From: Trueperaceae bacterium
GTDB taxonomy: Bacteria > Deinococcota > Deinococci > Deinococcales > Trueperaceae
Direction of reading: 5' to 3'
DNA length: 64,000 bases
NCBI GenBank assembly: GCA_011389865.1
Contig: JAABTL010000006.1
Coordinates: forward strand, 1 to 64,000
This document shows positions 4,424-47,009 of this stretch, piece after piece. The stretch's first letter is position 1. Each line of letters starts with the position of its first letter. Under the pieces are notes generated by a model. That model was not told the DNA's origin and ran no database searches. It worked only from the letters and a program-made list of their open reading frames with translations. The translations under genes and the position numbers were made by a program.

Positions 4424-4454
4424 CGGGTTGGGGCGCCATGGGCGCCCCAACCCG
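4424..4454 (-). terminator. Intra-operon stem-loop after the binding-protein gene
   Basis: Perfect 14-bp stem (4424-4437 with 4441-4454) and a 3-base loop (ATG), 38 bases after the binding-protein stop and before the first permease. There is no U tract. It may be an attenuator or an mRNA 3' end protector, the usual arrangement for keeping binding protein in excess over permease. Confidence 0.6.
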
Positions 4455-21660: not shown

Positions 21661-21694
21661 GCGGGCGGCGCCGGAGGATCCCGGCGCCGCCCGC
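21661..21694. terminator. Bidirectional terminator hairpin
   Basis: Perfect 14-bp GC stem (21661-21674 with 21681-21694), loop AGGATC, no U tract, lying between the convergent yjjW and ABC permease genes. Confidence 0.7.
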
Positions 21695-26163: not shown

Positions 26164-27648
26164 TCAGGCGTAGAGCGGGTTCGACAGGGCCACCACCCAG
26201 GGGTGCGCGAACACCTCGTCGAGGGTGATCCCGAACGGGAGCGGCCGCGCCGCCGACCAGGCGGCCAACTCCGCCCGTCGTGCGGCGAGACCCACGTCCG
26301 CGACGACCTCGGCGCGCAGGAACGGGCCGTCGGGCTGCCACACGTACACGTCCTCGAACGCCTCGCCCACGACCGGCACCTCGCGCAGCACCCCCTGGGC
26401 ACCCACCCAGCGCAGCCGTTCGCCGACGGCGCCGCGGACCGACGCCGTCACCCGGTGCTCGGCGGCGGCGGGCAGGCGGCCACCCATCGGTACCGGCCCC
26501 GAACGAATCGCGAGCAGTGGTCCGCGCGGCCCCTCCGACACCGTTGCGCGGCCGTCGCGAAGGGAACGCAGCGCCTCGGGGACGCCCAGGCGAGGGAGCT
26601 GTAGCCAGGTGGTGGGGCTGCCCACCCGCAGCGCCTCCGGCTCGCGCTCGGGTCCTGCCGGTTGGTGACGGTCGCTGCCGCCGACCAGCGTCAGCCGTCT
26701 GCCGGCGGCCAGCAACCTGTCGTAGCGCGCAAGCGACTCCCAGTTGCGCAGCGGCCAAGGTCCCTGCCACGCTTCGAACGCGTCGACGTCCTCGGGAACG
26801 GGATACTCCCAGTCGCAGCCGATGCAGCCGGGCTGGGTCTTGGGGTGATTGACCGACACCAGCCCGCCGAGTTCGTGCCCGCGCCGCACCATGACCGCGA
26901 CGTCGGCGTCGCCCGCGATGCGGAAGTCGACCCAGCTCGAGGCGCCCCACACATTGGCGTGCCCGCGGTAGGTGGTGACCTCCATACCCGCGATCGGCAG
27001 TACGGGGCCGCCCTGGTGGCGGCGCAGGTCGGCGTGGTGGCTGACGGTGTTGTGGTCGGTGACGGCCAGGTAGCGCAGGCCGCGCGCGTGGGCGGCGGCC
27101 AGCAGCTCGTCGACGCTGCCTTGGGCGTCGCTGTGGTGGGTGTGGCTCTGCAGGTCGCCGGGGAACCAGGGGTCGTCGAGGGCGGCCGTAGCGCGGGCGA
27201 CGAACGCCGGGCGCGGGCCGGGTTCCGCCGGGCCCGAATCGGGTGGCGCCGGGGCTGCGCCGCGGGCGGGGGAGGATCCGGCGGGCCCGCCCGTGTCGAC
27301 CTCCACCTCCACACGGTAGGCGCAGCCCTCTGGCCCGATCCGGGCGCGTCCCAGCAGCACCTGCCAGCGCCCGGCCGGCAGCCGCCCGGGCAGGTAGCCT
27401 GGGGTGGCATCGTGCTCCGCCACGAAGGCCTCGCTGCGGGCGCCCCCGCTCCAACCGCGGAAACCCGCGGCAGAGGGGAAGGGCTTGGCCGTGGGATCGA
27501 GCAGGCCGAGGTCGAGGATGTGGCCAGGGTCGTGGCGGTAGCGGACGGTGACCCGCGTGCACGCCTCGGGCACCTCGAACGCGAGCTGCGCGACCGGTTC
27601 TGCCGGGTCGGCGTGCAGCACCCCCTCGAGCACGTGGACGGCGCTCAC
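26164..27648 (-). CDS. PHP-domain metallohydrolase (CehA/McbA type)
   Basis: 494 residues. An N-terminal beta-rich region (about 1-150, VTVRYRHDPGHILDLGLLDP) precedes a PHP domain with its metal ligands: DLQSHTHHSD, YLAVTDHNTVSHH, MEVTT, LVSVNHPK and GGSDRHQP. The CehA/McbA-like family hydrolyses phosphoesters or carbamates. Here it ends a sugar ABC/alpha-mannosidase operon, coupled to the ATPase gene by a GTGA overlap, so a phosphorylated or otherwise ester-linked glycan fragment is a reasonable but unproven substrate. There is no signal peptide, placing it in the cytoplasm. Confidence 0.75.
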   Translation of the reverse strand: MSAVHVLEGVLHADPAEPVAQLAFEVPEACTRVTVRYRHDPGHILDLGLLDPTAKPFPSAAGFRGWSGGARSEAFVAEHDATPGYLPGRLPAGRWQVLLGRARIGPEGCAYRVEVEVDTGGPAGSSPARGAAPAPPDSGPAEPGPRPAFVARATAALDDPWFPGDLQSHTHHSDAQGSVDELLAAAHARGLRYLAVTDHNTVSHHADLRRHQGGPVLPIAGMEVTTYRGHANVWGASSWVDFRIAGDADVAVMVRRGHELGGLVSVNHPKTQPGCIGCDWEYPVPEDVDAFEAWQGPWPLRNWESLARYDRLLAAGRRLTLVGGSDRHQPAGPEREPEALRVGSPTTWLQLPRLGVPEALRSLRDGRATVSEGPRGPLLAIRSGPVPMGGRLPAAAEHRVTASVRGAVGERLRWVGAQGVLREVPVVGEAFEDVYVWQPDGPFLRAEVVADVGLAARRAELAAWSAARPLPFGITLDEVFAHPWVVALSNPLYA

Positions 27649-28739
27649 GCCCGCTCGATCCGCTCCCCGCCGGTCCGGAAGAAGTGCATCTTGGCCTCGT
27701 CGAGCCCGAGGTGCACCACCGAATCCACGTCGGGCGGCTCGTCGGAGAAGAGCCTCACGGTGACCAGCGTGCCGTCGAAGCGCAGCGTCACCAGCGACTC
27801 CGGGCCCAGGGTCTCCACCGCGTAAGGCTCGCCCGATAGCGTTCCCGGTGTCGCCCGTGCCTCGAGGCGCAGGTGCTCGGGGCGGACCCCGACGATGAGC
27901 TCGCCGCCCTCGCCGACGTCGGCGACCAACCATGCCGCGGTCTCCGCCCGGAGAGGCAACTGGGCGGCGTCGGAGGCGAGGCTCGGGCGTTGGCCCGAAT
28001 GCACCTGGAAGCGCAGCATGTTCATCGGTGGGTTGCCGAGGAAGTTGGCCACGAAGGTGGTCGCGGGATGCCGGTAGACCTCGAGCGGAGGACCTATCTG
28101 CACGATCTTGCCTTCGTGCATGACGGCGATTCGGTCGGCGATCGCCATCGCCTCCGCCTGGTCGTGGGTCACGTACACGGCGGTGACGCCCAGCTCACGC
28201 TGCAGGTGCTTGAGGAAGCTGCGCGCCTCGAGGCGCAGCTTGGCGTCGAGGTTCGAGAGCGGTTCGTCGAAGAGGAACACCTGCGGCTTGTGCACCACCG
28301 CGCGGGCGACCGAGGTGCGTTGCTGCTGGCCGCCCGAGATCTGGCCGGGTCGCCTTGCCAGCAGGTCCCCGATCTGTAGGTGCTCGGACACCTCGGCCAC
28401 GCGACGGTCGCGTTCGTTCGGGGCAACCTTGCGCACCTTGAGCGGGTAGCCGATGTTCTCGCCGATCGACATGTGTGGGTAGAGGGCGTAGTCCTGGAAG
28501 ACCATGCCCACGTCGCGGTCCTTGGCGGCCAGCTGGGTCACCTCGCGCTCGCCGATGCGGATGCTGCCGGCGGTGGGCTTCTCGAGCCCGGCGATGAGGC
28601 GCAGGGTGGTCGTCTTTCCGCAGCCGGAAGGCCCCAGCAGGCACACGAACTCGCCATCGGCGATGACGAAAGAGACGCCGTCGACGGCCTTGACGGTGCC
28701 GAACGCCTTCTCGACGTCGTGGAAGCTCACCAGGGCCAC
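27645..28739 (-). CDS. Sugar ABC transporter ATPase (MsmK/UgpC/MalK type)
   Basis: 364 residues. Walker A GPSGCGKT, Q loop VFQDYALYPHMS, signature ISGGQQQRTSVARA, Walker B VFLFDEPLSNLDAKLR and switch VTHDQAEAM are complete. The C-terminal third has the OB-fold regulatory extension of MalK-type ATPases (GVRPEHLRLE...VTLRFDGTLVTVRL). GTG at 28739 has GGAGG seven bases upstream. Serves the permeases upstream and possibly also the ATPase-less importer at 2.7-5.8 kb. Confidence 0.92.
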   Translation of the reverse strand: MALVSFHDVEKAFGTVKAVDGVSFVIADGEFVCLLGPSGCGKTTTLRLIAGLEKPTAGSIRIGEREVTQLAAKDRDVGMVFQDYALYPHMSIGENIGYPLKVRKVAPNERDRRVAEVSEHLQIGDLLARRPGQISGGQQQRTSVARAVVHKPQVFLFDEPLSNLDAKLRLEARSFLKHLQRELGVTAVYVTHDQAEAMAIADRIAVMHEGKIVQIGPPLEVYRHPATTFVANFLGNPPMNMLRFQVHSGQRPSLASDAAQLPLRAETAAWLVADVGEGGELIVGVRPEHLRLEARATPGTLSGEPYAVETLGPESLVTLRFDGTLVTVRLFSDEPPDVDSVVHLGLDEAKMHFFRTGGERIERA

Positions 28740-28803
28740 GGGCGACCTCCGTCGAAGTCCTGCCGCGGGCGCGGCTCGCCCACCCTTGCGTAGGCACGAT
28801 CGG

Positions 28804-29646
28804 TCACGATTTGATCCCTCCGAAGAAGCGGAAGCCATACTTCCAGTTGACGAACAGGTACAGCAGGAGCACCGGGACCGTGTACAGCAGCGAGTAGGCG
28901 GCGGTGAGCGTCACCAGCGGGGTGCCGGCCTCGGTGTAGAAGGAGTAGATGGCGACGGACGCCGGCATCTTGGAGGGGCTGCGCAGCAGGATGAAGGGGA
29001 TCAGGAAGCCACCCCAGATGTTCACGAAAGCCCACACGCCCACCACCATCATCCCGGGGCGGACGATCGGCAGCGCCACGTCGCGGAACACCGCCCAGGG
29101 ACCAGCGCCAGCGACCATGGCGGACTCCTCATAGGAGCGCGGGATGGAGTCCACGAAGTCGCGCATGATGAAGATCGCCGCCGGGAGCAGACCGCCGGTG
29201 AACACCAGCACGACGCCTAGGTGCGAGTCGATGAGGCCCATCCCGAAGATCATCAGGAAGATCGGTACCATCGCGGCGGTGCCCGTGACCACCGACGAGA
29301 ACAGCACCAGCCCGTAGGTGATCGCCTCGGTGCCGCGGATGGCGGCGCGCGACAGAGCGTAGGCGGCCAGGGTGGCGCAGATCGTGACCAGCAGCATGCC
29401 GCCGCCGGCCTGGATCACGCTGTTCTGCACCAACGCCCGGATCGCGAACCTGTTCGCGAACACGCGCTCGAAGTTCTGCAGGCTCCAGGGATCGGGCCAC
29501 GTCACCGACAGGTTCGCCAGCGTGCTGAAGGGCGCCGTGGTCAGCCACAGCAGCGGTAGCACGAAGAAGGCGGCGAACAGGCAGGCGGCCACGTAGAAGG
29601 CGATGCGCCCGAACACGAAGCGGGCCGCGCGCACGCCGGGGCTCAC
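28804..29646 (-). CDS. Sugar ABC transporter permease (MalG type)
   Basis: 280 residues with six hydrophobic segments and the EAA loop ESAMVAGAGPWAVFRDVALPIVRPG. GTG at 29646 overlaps the stop of the other permease (GTGA), showing coupled translation. Partner of the permease at 29643-30548. About 64 bases separate it from the ATPase gene. Confidence 0.9.
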   Translation of the reverse strand: MSPGVRAARFVFGRIAFYVAACLFAAFFVLPLLWLTTAPFSTLANLSVTWPDPWSLQNFERVFANRFAIRALVQNSVIQAGGGMLLVTICATLAAYALSRAAIRGTEAITYGLVLFSSVVTGTAAMVPIFLMIFGMGLIDSHLGVVLVFTGGLLPAAIFIMRDFVDSIPRSYEESAMVAGAGPWAVFRDVALPIVRPGMMVVGVWAFVNIWGGFLIPFILLRSPSKMPASVAIYSFYTEAGTPLVTLTAAYSLLYTVPVLLLYLFVNWKYGFRFFGGIKS

Positions 29647-30548
29647 GGCCGGCCCCTCTGCGCGCGCAGCAGCGACAGGTAGAACATCGCGAAGCCCAGG
29701 TTGATGAGCATCATGACCATCCCAACGGCGCCTCCCATCCCGAAGCGGAAGAACTGGAACGCGGTACGGTAGGTGTAGATCGACACCAGTTCGGTCTTGA
29801 AGGCCGGGCCGCCGCCGGTGAGCAGGAACGGCGTGAAGGTGTTGAACGTCCACAGCGTGATGAGTACCAACGCCGTCACGATGTGGGTCTTGATCATCGG
29901 CAGGATGATGTCGTTCAGGCGCTGCCAGGTGTTCGCCCCGATGACCGACGCCGTCTCCAGGTAGCTGGGCGGAATCGACCCCAAGGCCGAACTGAAGAGC
30001 AGCATGCTGAAGGCAGTGCCGCGCCAGATGTTGAACAGCACGATCGATACCAACGGTAGAGCGAGCAACCAGTCGGGCCGGCCCAACCCGAGGAAGGCGA
30101 GCACCTGGTTGAGGGTGCCGCCGTCGCGGTCGAGGAACGCGAACCAGGCGAAGGCGACCACCACGTCGGGCATGATCCAGGCCAGGATGGCGAGCGTCTG
30201 CACGGTGCTCTGTACCCAGCCGCGGCGCTGAAAGAAGAACCAGGCGAGGATGAGGCCCAACAGCGCCTGTCCGACGATGGCTGAGAAGAACACGAACTGG
30301 CCGGTGAGCAGCAGCGAAGCGCCGAACTCGCCCGAGTTCAGGAAGCGGTCGAAGTCGAACAACCGCTGGTAGTTGGCGAGCCCGACGAACTCGGGGTTGA
30401 TGGCCGTGCGGCCGGTCAGGGTGCGATTGGTGAAGCTGACCGCCGCGATCCAGAAGAACGGCAGCACGATGAAGGCGGCGACGAAGACTCCGGCGGGCAA
30501 CAGGAACACGAGCCCGGCAGGGAGCGACAAGATAGGTCGGCGTTGCAC
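29643..30548 (-). CDS. Sugar ABC transporter permease (MalF type)
   Basis: 301 residues with six hydrophobic segments and the EAA loop ETASVIGANTWQRLNDIILPMIKTH. GTG at 30548 has GGAGG six bases upstream and fits the usual short N-terminus; an earlier in-frame TTG at 30608 would add a glycine-rich tail without support. A modest hairpin (7-bp stem, 30575-30602) lies between it and the binding-protein gene, echoing the stem-loop in the first sugar operon. Confidence 0.9.
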   Translation of the reverse strand: MQRRPILSLPAGLVFLLPAGVFVAAFIVLPFFWIAAVSFTNRTLTGRTAINPEFVGLANYQRLFDFDRFLNSGEFGASLLLTGQFVFFSAIVGQALLGLILAWFFFQRRGWVQSTVQTLAILAWIMPDVVVAFAWFAFLDRDGGTLNQVLAFLGLGRPDWLLALPLVSIVLFNIWRGTAFSMLLFSSALGSIPPSYLETASVIGANTWQRLNDIILPMIKTHIVTALVLITLWTFNTFTPFLLTGGGPAFKTELVSIYTYRTAFQFFRFGMGGAVGMVMMLINLGFAMFYLSLLRAQRGRP

Positions 30549-30612
30549 GCGTGACCTCCGACGGAGGGGTTGGGGGAGGGGACGGCCGCCGCCGCCCCCT
30601 CCGGTCAAGCCG

Positions 30613-31965
30613 TCATTCCAGCAGGTCGACGGTGTTCTCGATGCCGACGAGGTCGATGACCGCGAGGGCGTACTGCTCCATCGCCTGCAGCGGGGTCATC
30701 TCGCCGGAGACCACGCGCTCGGTCATCAGCTGCGTCTGGTACGACACCTCGGGGTACACGGCCTCGTTCGGCCGCGCCGTGGTGTACGGGCTCAACGTGG
30801 CGGAGGTCTCCGTCAGGAACGGTGCGTCGGGCACGGGGACGTCGTCCCGCGCGTGGATGCGCGGTTGGATCGTTTGGTACGCGTCGAGCATCTCCTTGCT
30901 GTTCATGAAGGCCAGCAGTTCCCAGGCCAGTTCGGGATGGCTGCTGTTGGGGTTCAGCACGCTGCCGGTGCCGCCGGAGATGGTCACGAAGTCCTGGCCG
31001 CGGAATCCTGCGCCGGGCTCCTTGGCCGGCATCATGGCCCAGCCCATGGTCTCGTCGCGGTTGGCGACCGCGAACTCCTGACCCGGCGACGTCGGGCCGC
31101 GGTAGAACCAGTCGCCCTCGACGAGCATGGCGGTGACGCCGTCGCGGAAGTTGGCGAACGAGCGGTTGCGGCCGTCCTGCAGCAGCTGCACGCGGGCGTC
31201 GCCCAGCTGCTCGTCGATGTAGATCGTCTCGTAGAACCCGAGGGTGTCGAGGAGACCCTGGCTGCGGACGATCCAGCGGCCCTCGTCATCCTGCAGGGAG
31301 TGGCCGGCCCCGAGCAGCACCATGTAGAAGCCCTGCATGGTGGTCGCCTCACCCATGGCGGTGCCGGCGTTGATCTGCAGCGGTACCGATTCGGGGAAGG
31401 CGGCCTTCACCATGCGGGCGGCCTCCAGCACTTCCTCCCACGAGACGGGTTGCCAGTTGGCCGGGTCGGGGATACCGGCGGCCTCGAGCATGTCGAGGCG
31501 GAGGTGGATCATGCGGTAGTCGGTCCCCAGCGGGACGCCGTAGAGCTCGCCGTCGAGCGACAGCTTGGCCTGGTTGCCGGGCGAGATGTGGCTCCAGCCC
31601 TCCCACTCGAGCGCGGCCGGGCCACCGACCTCGTGGAGCGGCTTGAGCAACCCCGCCTCGGCGAACTCGGGGACCCAGAAGCCGTCGAAGCTCATCACGT
31701 CGGCGCCGGCGCCAACCGACAGGTCGAGCGCGTACTGCTCCTTGAGGGCCTCGTCGGAACCACCGAACTCGATCAGCTCGACGGTAACGCCGGCGTGGCG
31801 GGCTTCGAACTCGGGGATGACGTACGTTTGGAGCCATTCGACCTGGTGCATGTTGACGCCGCCGGCGACCATGCGACCGGTGATGGTGAGCGTCTGGCCG
31901 AGCGCCACTCCGGCGACGGCCAGGACGACCAGAAGGGCCAGTGACGTGCGCGCGTATCGGTTCAT
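30613..31965 (-). CDS. Sugar ABC transporter substrate-binding protein
   Basis: 450 residues. Sec signal MNRYARTSLALLVVLAVAGVALG, cleaved before Q24 as in the binding protein of the first operon. The mature protein shows the family-1 pattern (IPEFEARHAGVTVELIEFGG, GADVMSFDGFWVPEFAEAGLLKPL, LYGVPLGTDYRMIHLRLDMLEAAG). AGGAGGAG precedes the ATG. Given the GH38 alpha-mannosidase directly upstream, mannose-containing oligosaccharides or mannosyl-compatible solutes are the likely cargo. Confidence 0.9.
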   Translation of the reverse strand: MNRYARTSLALLVVLAVAGVALGQTLTITGRMVAGGVNMHQVEWLQTYVIPEFEARHAGVTVELIEFGGSDEALKEQYALDLSVGAGADVMSFDGFWVPEFAEAGLLKPLHEVGGPAALEWEGWSHISPGNQAKLSLDGELYGVPLGTDYRMIHLRLDMLEAAGIPDPANWQPVSWEEVLEAARMVKAAFPESVPLQINAGTAMGEATTMQGFYMVLLGAGHSLQDDEGRWIVRSQGLLDTLGFYETIYIDEQLGDARVQLLQDGRNRSFANFRDGVTAMLVEGDWFYRGPTSPGQEFAVANRDETMGWAMMPAKEPGAGFRGQDFVTISGGTGSVLNPNSSHPELAWELLAFMNSKEMLDAYQTIQPRIHARDDVPVPDAPFLTETSATLSPYTTARPNEAVYPEVSYQTQLMTERVVSGEMTPLQAMEQYALAVIDLVGIENTVDLLE

Positions 31966-32074
31966 GCGATCTCCTCCTACGACCGGTGGGTCATGGCGGG
32001 CGGGCAGCCCGGGGGGTGCCTGGTGTGGCGTGCGTTCTCCCGGGAGCGCGGGCCGAACCGGCTCAGGGCATGGC

Positions 32075-34873
32075 TTATCGCCCCCTCTCGTGGTACGTCA
32101 GCTCGACGGTGACGACCTCCTTGGGGCCCAGGCGCAACTCCAGGCCGTCGTCGACGATGGCGAGGCGTTCGCCCCGGCTCTCGTCGAGGCGCGTCAGGAA
32201 GGCTTCGCTGAGGCGGTGCGACGTGTCCAGGCGGCCGCCGACGGGCTCGGGCGACGGGTTCCACAGCCGCACGATCAGCCCGCTTCCGGCGTCAGCGAGC
32301 TTGGCAGCCGAGAGCGTCAGGGGCGGCGTGAGCGCGATGCCGAGGCCCGGGTACGGGCAGTCGCTTCCGCCGGCGCCGCCTGCCAAGCCGGCGGCCGAAG
32401 CTCCGTGGGTCCGTGTGCCGAGCGTCGATTCCTTGCTGGGAGCGAGATCGGGGCGCGGTTCGGCGCGACCCGCCGCGAAGACGCGGGCGGGGGCCGTGAA
32501 GCGTTCGGCGGCCGCGGGCAGACGGCTCTTCCACCACGGCCCGGCGAACGGGACGACGGCGAGTTCGAAGCGATGGGGGCCGAGGCATTGGGCTCCAGGG
32601 GCGGGCAGCGCCGGTCCGGCGCCCTGGGGCCGCGAGGCGAGGTCGTCGCGTGACAGCCAACCCACGCAACGCAGCAGGGTGACGGCCAGTTCGACGCCTG
32701 CGGTGCCATTGGCTGCCTCGTACTCGGGAAGCCCGCGAGTCAGCACGGCGAGGCCGGCCCCGCCGTCGCTGACGGCGACGAAGCGGCGCTGGTGGCCGGT
32801 GGGCTGCGGTCGCTGGTACCAGTGGTCGGCGGTCGGTGGCCGCACCGGTCGCCGCAGGACGTCCCAGTGGCCGTCGGCCCACACGTGATCGGCGTCGATC
32901 CCGGTGTCGATGCGCAGGCGAAGGCGGTGGTCCTCGGCGGCGTTCGTGAGTTCGGCCATGAGGTCCATGCGCTCCGCGAAGGCTTCGAGTCCCAACGCGA
33001 CGTGCACGTCCATGGCCACGCGGCCGACGCGCTCGCGACGGTCGTCGCTGAGCCTCTGCGGCAGCTCCAGCCGGTAGCGCAGCTCGATCGCGCCGCTCAG
33101 GGTGCCTTCGGCCGCGAGTGTCGGCGGCGCCAGCGGCCGGCGGACGACGACGGCGCGGTCACCCGCCAGCGGCGAGAAGTCGTACTCGTCGCCGGCATCC
33201 GCCACGTCCTCGAACCGCAACTCCAGCCGGTGCTCACGCCCGCTGGCGCGGTCGAGCAGCACGACCGTCCCGTCGGAAGCCACCATGATCCGCAGCGCAG
33301 CGTTCTCGAGCTGGAGCCCACCACCCATCGTCGAGGCGCGAACGGGATCGGCTGGGAGCGGCCCGTGGGCGTCGCCGGCCCCGAGGCGCATTCGCGAGAG
33401 CGAGGTCGATCGGGTGGGCAACGCGACGGAGAGCGCCACCCGATCGATCCAGGCGTCGCTGCGGCCCGCTACCGCCACCCGCTGAACCTGACGGTTGGAG
33501 GGCAGCGGCCGGCCGGCCTCGTCGAGGGCCGTCAGCCGCGGGCCGTCACCGGCGGCAGCCTCGACCTCGGTGTGGACCACCGTCCACCCGTCGTACGGCA
33601 GTGGCTCGAACACCGCCAACTCGGGACCGGCCGCGTCCGCGGTGAGCGCAGCCACCGCGCGGCGGCAGAGCTCGTCGCCGACCTGCCGGACGGTCTCGAA
33701 GCGGGTGGCCATCTCCCGGTGGACGGGGTCGATCGAGCAGCCGCAGATCGAGTCGTGCGCGTGGTTGAGGAGCAGCCGGCGCCACGCGTGATCGAGCAGC
33801 GGACGGTCGTCGTGGCCGACGCGTGCGGCGGCGGCAAGCAACGGCTCCGCATAGCGCTCGAGCAACGTCTCGCACGCGTGGTTGGTCTGCTTCAGCGGCA
33901 TGCGCGCCGACCACACGCCGCCGAGCACGTGGTGGTAGCGACTGGCGTGGAACTCGCCCTGGTAGCGCTCCAGGGTGGCCAGCGGCGGGCGCGGTGCGTC
34001 GACGTACTCCTCGACGTCGGCATGCTGGAAGCGCACGGTCGGCATAGCCTGGGAGAGGGCGTCGATCACCTCGGGCAGGTTGCGCTGGGGAAACAGGTGG
34101 TCGGAGCCGTTGAGCAGCAGCGCCTGGCCGTTACGCGTGTAGCCGGCGATGCCCTGGGGCAGTCGCTCGATCGCCTCGCGGAGCCAAGTCGGGAAGGCGG
34201 CCTCGCTGGCCCGCGGCCCGAAGAGGGCGGCCCGCACCTGGCGCACGGCCAGGTCTGCGTCGTAGGGGTCGCCGTACGCCCAGTCGAGGTGCCCGAGCGC
34301 GGTGGCGGCCGAGTAGGTGCCGACGAGGTGGACGGCGAACACCTCGGTGCGGCCGTCGGAGGCCAGCCAGCGGAACTCGGTGCCGAGCCGCTCACCCTCG
34401 TCGCCGACGCCGCGTTCGAAGATCACCGCTTTGAGCCCGAAGCCGTCGACCAACAGCGGAAGCTGCGCCACGTGGCCGAACGAGTCGGGCGTGTACGCGA
34501 CCGGCATGGCGCCGCCAAACGCGCGGCACGCGCGCAGGCCGTGCTGCAGGTTGCGCACCAGCGCCTCCGGGCTGACGAGGTACTCGTCCGCGAGGACGTA
34601 CCAGGGGCCGATCCGCAGGCGACCGGCGCGCACGAGCTCAGCGACCTCGCCCCGCCGTTCGGGGCGCACGGTCAGGTAGTCCTCGACGGCCACCGCCTGG
34701 CCGTCGAGGGTGAAGCGGCGGTAGCGGTTGCCGGGGTCGTGCAGCAGTTCCAACACGGTGTCGACCACGTCGACCAGTCGCGCACGGAACACCTCGAGTG
34801 GCTGGTACCACTCGCGGTCCCAGTGGGTGTGCGGAACCAGATAGGCGGTAAGGCGAGGTTCAGAGTCGCTCAT
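32075..34873 (-). CDS. GH38 alpha-mannosidase
   Basis: 932 residues, normal for bacterial GH38 enzymes. The zinc-binding start VPHTHWDREW (H15, H17, D19), the catalytic nucleophile region AYTPDSFGHVAQLP (D130) and the late zinc ligand LLNHAHDSICGCSID are all present. The rest is the mid domain and beta-rich C-terminal domains of the family. No signal peptide, so it acts on imported mannosides in the cytoplasm; MngB-like mannosylglycerate hydrolase is one option. ATG at 34873 overlaps the LacI stop. TAD- or lectin-like additions are not evident. Confidence 0.9.
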   Translation of the reverse strand: MSDSEPRLTAYLVPHTHWDREWYQPLEVFRARLVDVVDTVLELLHDPGNRYRRFTLDGQAVAVEDYLTVRPERRGEVAELVRAGRLRIGPWYVLADEYLVSPEALVRNLQHGLRACRAFGGAMPVAYTPDSFGHVAQLPLLVDGFGLKAVIFERGVGDEGERLGTEFRWLASDGRTEVFAVHLVGTYSAATALGHLDWAYGDPYDADLAVRQVRAALFGPRASEAAFPTWLREAIERLPQGIAGYTRNGQALLLNGSDHLFPQRNLPEVIDALSQAMPTVRFQHADVEEYVDAPRPPLATLERYQGEFHASRYHHVLGGVWSARMPLKQTNHACETLLERYAEPLLAAAARVGHDDRPLLDHAWRRLLLNHAHDSICGCSIDPVHREMATRFETVRQVGDELCRRAVAALTADAAGPELAVFEPLPYDGWTVVHTEVEAAAGDGPRLTALDEAGRPLPSNRQVQRVAVAGRSDAWIDRVALSVALPTRSTSLSRMRLGAGDAHGPLPADPVRASTMGGGLQLENAALRIMVASDGTVVLLDRASGREHRLELRFEDVADAGDEYDFSPLAGDRAVVVRRPLAPPTLAAEGTLSGAIELRYRLELPQRLSDDRRERVGRVAMDVHVALGLEAFAERMDLMAELTNAAEDHRLRLRIDTGIDADHVWADGHWDVLRRPVRPPTADHWYQRPQPTGHQRRFVAVSDGGAGLAVLTRGLPEYEAANGTAGVELAVTLLRCVGWLSRDDLASRPQGAGPALPAPGAQCLGPHRFELAVVPFAGPWWKSRLPAAAERFTAPARVFAAGRAEPRPDLAPSKESTLGTRTHGASAAGLAGGAGGSDCPYPGLGIALTPPLTLSAAKLADAGSGLIVRLWNPSPEPVGGRLDTSHRLSEAFLTRLDESRGERLAIVDDGLELRLGPKEVVTVELTYHERGR

Positions 34874-35868
34874 GCGCTGGTCTCCCGCTCGATCAACCGG
34901 TGCCCGACGAGCCGCCGAAGGGGATCGGGCGCGTGGCCCTCGACCTGGTCGAGCACCAGCGTGGCCGCCTGGTGGCCGAGTTCGTGGGCGTGCAGTTCGA
35001 CGCTGCTGAGGCTGGGTACGGTGAAGCGTCCTATGTCGTCGTTGTTCATGCCGAACACGCGCACGCGGCCGGGGACATCGAGGCCTCTGCGGCGCAGGGT
35101 TTGCAGCGCGGCGGCAGCTAGCGCGTCCGAGATCGCTACCACCGCGTCGAGCGACGCACCCGCTCGGAGCCTGTCGTCGACTGCCTGTTGGGCGCTCTCG
35201 GGCCGGTCGTCGGTGAAGACGATCTGCGCCGGTTCCAGCTCTAGTCCGGCGTCACGGTGGGCGTCCGTGAAGCCCGTTGCGCGCTCGCGTGTGAAGGCCT
35301 GGCCGTCGTGGCCGTTGAGCAGCAGGAGGTGCCGGCAGCCACGCTGAAGCAGCGTGCGGGCGACGTCGAACGCCACCGCCCGGTTGTCGTTGTCCACGGT
35401 CGGGACGTCATCGCGTGCGGCTCGGCCGACGAGCACGTGAGGGAAGCCGTGGGCAGCAGCCAGGTCGGGAAGGGGATCGTCGGCGTCGAGATTCATGAAC
35501 ACCGCGCCGTCGGCCCAGCGCTCGCGCATCATCCGCAGAAGGGTCGCCCGGGCCTCGTCGGCGTCGACCGGCACCGAGAGCGCCAGGCTGGTGCCGCGCA
35601 TGCGGGTGCCGTCGTGCAGGCCACGCACGAAGCGCGTGAAGAAGCCGCTCGACATGGCGCTACCGCCCGGGTACAGAAGCTGAACTGACCAGGTCCGTCC
35701 CCTGGAGAGGCTGCGGGCGGCGCGGCTCGGGTGGTAGTGGAGCGCCGCCGCCGCGGCCAGGACCCGCTCGCGCGTGGCGGGCCGGACACGGGGATCGCCG
35801 TTGAGCGCCAGCGAGGCGGTCGACACCGAGACCGCCGCGCGGCGTGCGATGTCGCGAATGGTGGTCAT
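34870..35868 (-). CDS. LacI-family regulator of the mannoside operon
   Basis: 332 residues: HTH TTIRDIARRAAVSVSTASLALNGDPRVRPATRERV, hinge ALHYHPSRAARSLSRGRTWSVQLL, and the periplasmic-binding-like sensor domain with NMNNDDIGRFTVPSLSSVELHAHELG. ATG at 35868 is chosen by the position of the HTH and the GAGGGG upstream. It is the first gene of the operon with GH38 and the ABC transporter. A 30-bp perfect palindrome lies 14 bases before its start, with the CG-centred form typical of LacI-family operators, so it is likely autoregulated and induced by an imported mannoside. Confidence 0.9.
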   Translation of the reverse strand: MTTIRDIARRAAVSVSTASLALNGDPRVRPATRERVLAAAAALHYHPSRAARSLSRGRTWSVQLLYPGGSAMSSGFFTRFVRGLHDGTRMRGTSLALSVPVDADEARATLLRMMRERWADGAVFMNLDADDPLPDLAAAHGFPHVLVGRAARDDVPTVDNDNRAVAFDVARTLLQRGCRHLLLLNGHDGQAFTRERATGFTDAHRDAGLELEPAQIVFTDDRPESAQQAVDDRLRAGASLDAVVAISDALAAAALQTLRRRGLDVPGRVRVFGMNNDDIGRFTVPSLSSVELHAHELGHQAATLVLDQVEGHAPDPLRRLVGHRLIERETSA

Positions 35869-35881
35869 CCGACCCCTCGAC

Positions 35882-35911
35882 GCTCCCAATCGAACCGGTT
35901 CGATTGGGAGC
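35882..35911. promoter_or_regulatory. 30-bp perfect palindrome, LacI operator candidate
   Basis: Two 15-base arms with no spacer, centre GAACCGGTTC, each half ending in CGATTGGGAGC. It lies 14 bases upstream of the LacI start. A weaker CGAACCGGCTC occurs at 32054-32064 before the binding-protein gene. Confidence 0.7.
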
Positions 35912-36095
35912 CATGCCAACATCGGTCGGGACGCATACGACCTCGTTTCCTTCTTGACGCCAAGGTAGGCGGTCGAGCAGGGCGCCGTCAACCCCCGCGG
36001 ATGGCCCGCCAATCTGGCACCTTCGGCGTCCACCTTTGGGTGCGACCCGAGTACCCGCGTTAACCTCGTCTCACCCCAGCGCGAGGAGGCACCGG

Positions 36096-36500
36096 GTGGG
36101 CCCCGTCTTCGAGAAACTCAACCTCAAGGACCAGGCCGAGGTCGTCGTCCTGCACGCGCCGCTGTCGTTCGAGCCGGAGTTGGCGTGGCTGGCCGACCGG
36201 CGCGTCGTGCGCGACGTGAGCGAGGTCGAGACGGTGCGCTTCGCGCTGGCGTTCGCCTACATGAAGTCCGAGCTCGACGCCCTATCGGCCGCGCTGGCCA
36301 GCAAGGCCGAGGGCGACGCGGTCCTGTGGTTCGCCTACCCCAAGCGAACGTCGAAGCGCTACAAGGCCGACTTCGACCGCGACCACGGCTGGGAGGTGCT
36401 GCGGGTCGCGGGCTTCGAGCCCGTGCGCCAGGTGGCGATCGACGCCGACTGGTCGGCGCTGCGCTTCCGCCGGGCCGAGTTCGTCGGGGGTGCGCGCTAG
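36096..36500 (+). CDS. Small DUF3052-like protein
   Basis: 134 residues. FEKLNLKDQAEVVVLHAPLSFEPELAWL...VLWFAYPKRTSKRYKADFDRDHGWEVLRVAGFEPVRQVAIDADWSALRFRR follows the DUF3052-type layout (a Rossmann-like half resembling a degenerate methyltransferase, ending DxxWSaLrFr). Function is unknown. GTG at 36096 has GAGGAGG six bases upstream. It is followed directly by a GNAT gene that overlaps its end. Confidence 0.6.
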   Translation: MGPVFEKLNLKDQAEVVVLHAPLSFEPELAWLADRRVVRDVSEVETVRFALAFAYMKSELDALSAALASKAEGDAVLWFAYPKRTSKRYKADFDRDHGWEVLRVAGFEPVRQVAIDADWSALRFRRAEFVGGAR

Positions 36501-46970: not shown

Positions 46971-47009
46971 CGGCGGCGACCGGCGCACCCGTCGCGCCGG
47001 TCGCCGCCG
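46971..47009 (+). terminator. Terminator hairpin after the VOC gene
   Basis: Perfect 16-bp stem (46971-46986 with 46994-47009), 7-base loop, starting eight bases after the stop, no U tract. Confidence 0.7.

Follow-up and report, generated by a model that had tools for sequence, protein, structure and literature searches.

Introduction

According to PMC4052901, most DNA motifs of LacI-family regulators are palindromes of even length, 16-22 nt, with a CG centre, more than 75% of the sites are located 140 to 30 bp upstream of a start codon, about 20% of the regulated operons are preceded by more than one site, and 72% of the LacI-family regulators studied are autoregulated. ManR-type LacI regulators of mannose and mannoside utilization are named in a table of the same source. 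Downstream of a promoter, a LacI-type protein can hinder the advancing polymerase, its own gene included, as described for lac repressor roadblocking (PMC4132739, PMC3711431).

A perfect 30-bp palindrome precedes a LacI-family gene in a Trueperaceae bacterium (assembly GCA_011389865.1, contig JAABTL010000006.1), within the 64,000-nucleotide stretch analysed here, hereafter the window. Compared with the local repressors covered in PMC4052901, this locus is alike in its even, CG-centred palindrome of 16 bp, in its probable autoregulation, in the adjoining sugar operon and, in some relatives, in the presence of more than one site; it differs in that the site is nearer to the start codon than most and in that outer arms private to this genome bring the palindrome to 30 bp. 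The likeness to the ManR type is one of gene setting, namely a LacI-type regulator beside mannoside genes. A roadblock of the kind outlined in PMC4132739 and PMC3711431 would follow here from the position of a predicted promoter. A literature text search retrieved no match to the inner 12-mer of the palindrome, CGAACCGGTTCG, and searches combining Trueperaceae with LacI, or mannosylglycerate hydrolase with LacI, gave nothing on this operator or regulator and nothing at all, respectively.

The palindrome and the neighboring genes

The two 15-nt arms, GCTCCCAATCGAACC (35882-35896) and GGTTCGATTGGGAGC (35897-35911), are exactly complementary and meet without a spacer at a CG centre (ACCGGT), which bears out the palindrome and the CG-centred core described in an earlier note made from the sequence. 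The gap between the palindrome and the regulator ATG (35868-35866, minus strand) is 13 bp (35869-35881) and not the 14 bases given there. No perfect spacer-free palindrome elsewhere in the window comes near it in length, the next being three with 9-base arms and none reaching 10 or more. Arms of 15 bases were found in 0/200 sequences simulated with a first-order Markov model at the length and dinucleotide frequencies of the window, the longest simulated arms being of 13. If a spacer is allowed the size is not unique, as the window holds three perfect inverted repeats of similar dimensions, all of them G+C-rich, with 14-nt arms around 3 nt (4424-4454), 14-nt arms around 6 nt (21661-21694) and 16-nt arms around 7 nt (46971-47009).

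The features of the locus are listed in Table 1. The regulator scored above the cut-off with both PF00356 (58 bits) and PF13377 (106 bits) and thus belongs to the LacI-family repressors, with an N-terminal LacI helix-turn-helix and a periplasmic-binding-protein-like sensor domain. It is the first of six genes on the minus strand and is followed by the GH38 mannosidase, the binding protein, the two permeases and the ATPase. The listed permease reading frames overlap by about 210 bases, so the true start of permease 2 may lie further in. With the NCBIfam equivalog model of mannosylglycerate hydrolase the GH38 protein reached 441 bits, below the cut-off of 1138. Judged from its gene content, the operon probably serves the use of alpha-mannosides.

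Table 1. Features of the locus and their positions in the window.
Feature	Position	Strand	Basis
Perfect 30-bp palindrome (15-nt arms, spacer-free)	35882..35911		sequence and simulation
Putative operator core ATCGAACCGGTTCGAT	35889..35904		inner 12 bp CGAACCGGTTCG in 17/17 loci with upstream DNA; 16-mer exact in 11/17
Left outer arm GCTCCCA, found in this genome only	35882..35888		comparison with relatives
Right outer arm TGGGAGC, found in this genome only	35905..35911		comparison with relatives
Predicted -35 element TTGACG	35986..35991	-	relaxed script
Predicted -10 element TACCTT, spacer 18	35962..35967	-	relaxed script
GAGGGG, likely Shine-Dalgarno of the regulator	35873..35878	-	read from sequence, inference
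LacI-family regulator, 332 aa	34870..35868	-	PF00356, PF13377
GH38 alpha-mannosidase	32075..34873	-	ATG overlaps regulator stop
Half-copy CTGAGCCGGTTCGG, 10/14 match, probably not functional	32053..32066	-	sequence match
ABC solute-binding protein	30613..31965	-	annotated
ABC permease 1	29643..30608	-	annotated
ABC permease 2	28804..29853	-	listed ORF
ABC ATPase, MalK/UgpC-like	27645..28838	-	annotated

Conservation of the site upstream of orthologous regulators

Of 111 genomes of the phylum that were searched, 18 have the regulator at E<=1e-50, that of the window included. The locus L104 is cut by a contig end and was excluded from the upstream counts, leaving 17 loci, the window and 16 relatives. 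In 17 of the 18 loci (window included) GH38 comes right after the regulator, and all six genes are present in eight of them (window, L091, L097, L099, L101, L102, L103, and L105), while in nine others the contig or the fetched stretch ends too early for the full set of six. In L106, the one exception, the two permeases precede GH38 and neither a binding protein nor an ATPase was detected at E<=1e-15.

The earlier note proposed the palindrome as the likely operator and held that a lack of conservation upstream of orthologous regulators would speak against it. The proposal came through this comparison well, as the 12-mer CGAACCGGTTCG is present upstream of all 16 orthologous regulators with upstream DNA as well as in the window, over a range of 38-71% identity to the protein of the window. 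The 14-mer TCGAACCGGTTCGA is exact in 13/17 loci and matches 13 of 14 positions in the other four, and the window is among the 11 loci with an exact 16-mer ATCGAACCGGTTCGAT. Even the most distant orthologue, L106 (38% protein identity), carries two copies of the site. By comparison, 14 LacI genes less closely related to it (29-34% identity) were checked and none has CGAACCGGTTCG upstream (best match 10 of 14), these being the genes fetched as loci out of a longer list of regulator matches. Thus, as expected for a LacI-family operator, the 12-mer is conserved before the orthologous regulators and not before the others. Of the 17 orthologues whose N-terminus is present, the window counted, 14 have STASLALN as recognition helix and three deviate from it by one residue; the distant LacI proteins have TVSRV at this position in 11 of 14 cases. 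The centre of the site is located 24-38 bp before the start codon in 14/17 loci and 155 bp before the alignment-derived regulator start in L101-L103.

Numbered outward from the centre, pairs 1-6 are complementary in all 18 sites of the 16 relatives, pair 7 in 14/18 and pair 8 in 15/18, and the core is conserved in its letters, not only in its pairing. Beyond these positions complementarity falls (pairs 9 to 15 in 7, 10, 5, 8, 3, 6, and 6 of 18 sites), which makes ATCGAACCGGTTCGAT the best outline of the operator, an even, CG-centred palindrome whose 16 bp fall within the approximate 16-22 bp of LacI-family operators. Over pairs 9-15 the relatives average 2.5/7, close to the 2.2/7 obtained when arms from different loci were swapped, while the window has 7/7. 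The best relative, L094, has 5/7 and the closest one, L090, with a regulator 71% identical, has 1/7. The remark that the palindrome is longer than needed for a LacI dimer was therefore right as to length. The surplus, which consists of pairs 9-15, lacks conservation, however, and with no relative above 5/7 it does not clearly belong to the operator. Among 306 swapped arm pairings none reached 7/7 and four reached 6/7, which makes it unlikely that the outer extension is a trivial product of chance at one locus. In the light of this comparison the outer arms are a lineage-specific extension, outside what the operator model explains.

Outside the orthologous group, 48 further loci were scanned upstream (from a set of 49 public-record loci, L039 being omitted as a duplicate of the already counted G030), with a best match of 13/14 in one and at most 12/14 in the rest; hence the core is not shown beyond the orthologous group. 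The 13 of 14 match, ATCGAACCGTTTCGAT, is located about 213 bp upstream of the regulator in L078 (Maritalea mobilis), whose LacI protein has a recognition helix that also contains SLALN, which hints that helix and core may go together across phyla. Some of the 48 loci show their own palindromes close to the start codon. Seven of the loci (L048, L050-L053, L055, and L058), from Anaerolineaceae and other Chloroflexota, share a different near-palindrome around ATTGAAACGGTTCAAT, its centre about 12 bp upstream of the regulator gene, which apparently serves another LacI group as operator.

Specificity of the site in the genome and the family

No second copy within three mismatches of the 18-mer core was found in the window, and the 14-mer at up to three mismatches gave nine matches there, eight of them weak. 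In the genome as a whole (97% complete) there is no other place within one mismatch of TCGAACCGGTTCGA, so that at this threshold the site occurs only at the operon of its own regulator, as in a local autoregulated regulon. At up to two mismatches 20 places were counted in all vs 16 for the reversed control, and the genome holds eight other matches to the regulator, all within the reach of the one-mismatch search.

In the 39 genomes of the family CGAACCGGTTCG occurs at 45 places (reversed control, 15), 19 of which are at orthologous loci. The remaining 26 still make the 12-mer somewhat commoner than the control outside these loci (26 vs 15); the 14-mer is present at none of them, and the surrounding stretches, some shortened by contig ends, contain no relative of the regulator (tblastn E<=1e-6). 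A wider regulon in the relatives was rejected on these grounds. Outside the family, eight of the nine non-orthologue 12-mer places were read (all but the second place of G038) and likewise lacked the 14-mer. The uniqueness of the 14-mer in its own genome, together with the bare 12-mers elsewhere in the family, suggests that the regulator is probably local and acts at its own operon.

Predicted promoter position and possible repression geometry

With a relaxed script, TTGAC(A/G)-17/18-TAnnnT was detected upstream in 15/17 loci, a count that comes from related loci and without a shuffle control, and comparable -35/-10 elements are readable in L102 and L103 too. Assuming that transcription starts about 7 bp after the -10 element, the operator centre is tentatively predicted about 58 bp downstream, inside the leader. 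A predicted start upstream of the operator suggests a roadblock of the polymerase, a geometry left uncertain by the weakness of the promoter match and its absence from a stricter scan, which found none in the window at this place.

Seven of the 17 loci (L099-L103, L105, and L106) have a second full or near-full site that overlaps the -10 element or follows it by at most 3 bp, at 54-84 bp from the leader site and with one mismatch in L100-L103 and two in L105. At the -10 element of the window and of nine other loci no second site was found within two mismatches. In L090 and L091 a second site precedes the mannosidase gene, where the window has no gap.

Alternative explanations

The earlier note also envisaged a two-site control by the palindrome together with a weaker half-copy before the binding-protein gene. 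The sequence CTGAGCCGGTTCGG, which matches 10 of 14 positions, does sit in the 109-bp gap before that gene; this score was equalled by 17 of 500 mononucleotide shuffles. Ten of the 13 loci in which the gap was compared do not exceed 9/14, and the two that also reach 10/14, making 3/13 with the window, have the match elsewhere, at different positions. The half-copy was rejected as a second operator for being weak and not conserved, and this form of two-site control retains little probability. In relatives that have a second site, it is found either at the -10 element or upstream of the mannosidase gene; two-site arrangements thus exist in the group, not where the note placed them. As to the outer pairs, a second regulator could be thought to bind the TGGGAGC arms while the core serves the local repressor. 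The CebR-type box is TGGGAGCGCTCCCA, and the arms GCTCCCA and TGGGAGC correspond to both its halves in opposite order, that is, as a split box. The halves are, however, inside out and 16 bp apart, the arms are not conserved, and the genome has no exact TGGGAGCGCTCCCA box, two places at one mismatch and 18 within two, fewer than the 38 of the reversed control. A CebR-type box built from the outer arms was rejected in view of this depletion, and control by two regulators is extremely improbable.

The palindrome might also act in the mRNA: folded into a 13-bp hairpin immediately ahead of the Shine-Dalgarno, it could affect how the operon RNA is translated or how stable it is. It would be part of the 5' leader if transcription starts at the predicted promoter, and a 91-nt stretch, when folded, exceeds its shuffles in stability (z -2.89; 0/200 as stable). 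Yet conservation is confined to the inner eight pairs, with the outer seven at the level of swapped arms, it concerns the letters of the core themselves, and no terminator-like site, with the stem and T run of an intrinsic terminator or attenuator, was found in 35700-36200. An RNA hairpin as a conserved function is not supported, given that the outer pairs are not kept in the relatives, and this reading has a low probability. A single element that couples two levels of control, repressor roadblock and 13-bp mRNA hairpin, in a leader-only operator extended to 30 bp, within a group whose members often have a further operator overlapping the promoter, would be very improbable.

Proposed mechanism

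The inner 16 bp of the palindrome are very likely the operator of the adjacent LacI repressor, through which the whole operon, the regulator gene included, would be repressed, perhaps by roadblock. Conservation among orthologues, the pairing of regulator and site, the uniqueness of the site in the genome and its position at the operon together point to the operator of a local autoregulated repressor. One repressor dimer, centred on the CG, would bind ATCGAACCGGTTCGAT as long as a sugar presumably derived from alpha-mannosides is absent, and the bound protein would shut off the regulator, the GH38 mannosidase and the ABC importer, provided that these genes are co-transcribed as their order suggests. 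As the predicted start lies about 58 bp ahead of the operator centre, the repressor would more likely block a polymerase already under way than keep it off the promoter. Among the points that count against the operator model are the shorter distance to the start codon compared with most LacI sites, the different gene order in L106, the slight excess of the 12-mer in the family outside the orthologous loci, and the outer arms.

Conclusion

The loci compared constitute a small natural series in which the core is fixed while the number of operators (one or two) and their place (-10 element or leader) vary, and which may be used in tests of the geometry of LacI repression. For the Trueperaceae, the locus provides a well-supported assignment of a regulator, its probable operator and an operon probably devoted to alpha-mannoside use, the operator being otherwise an ordinary one.
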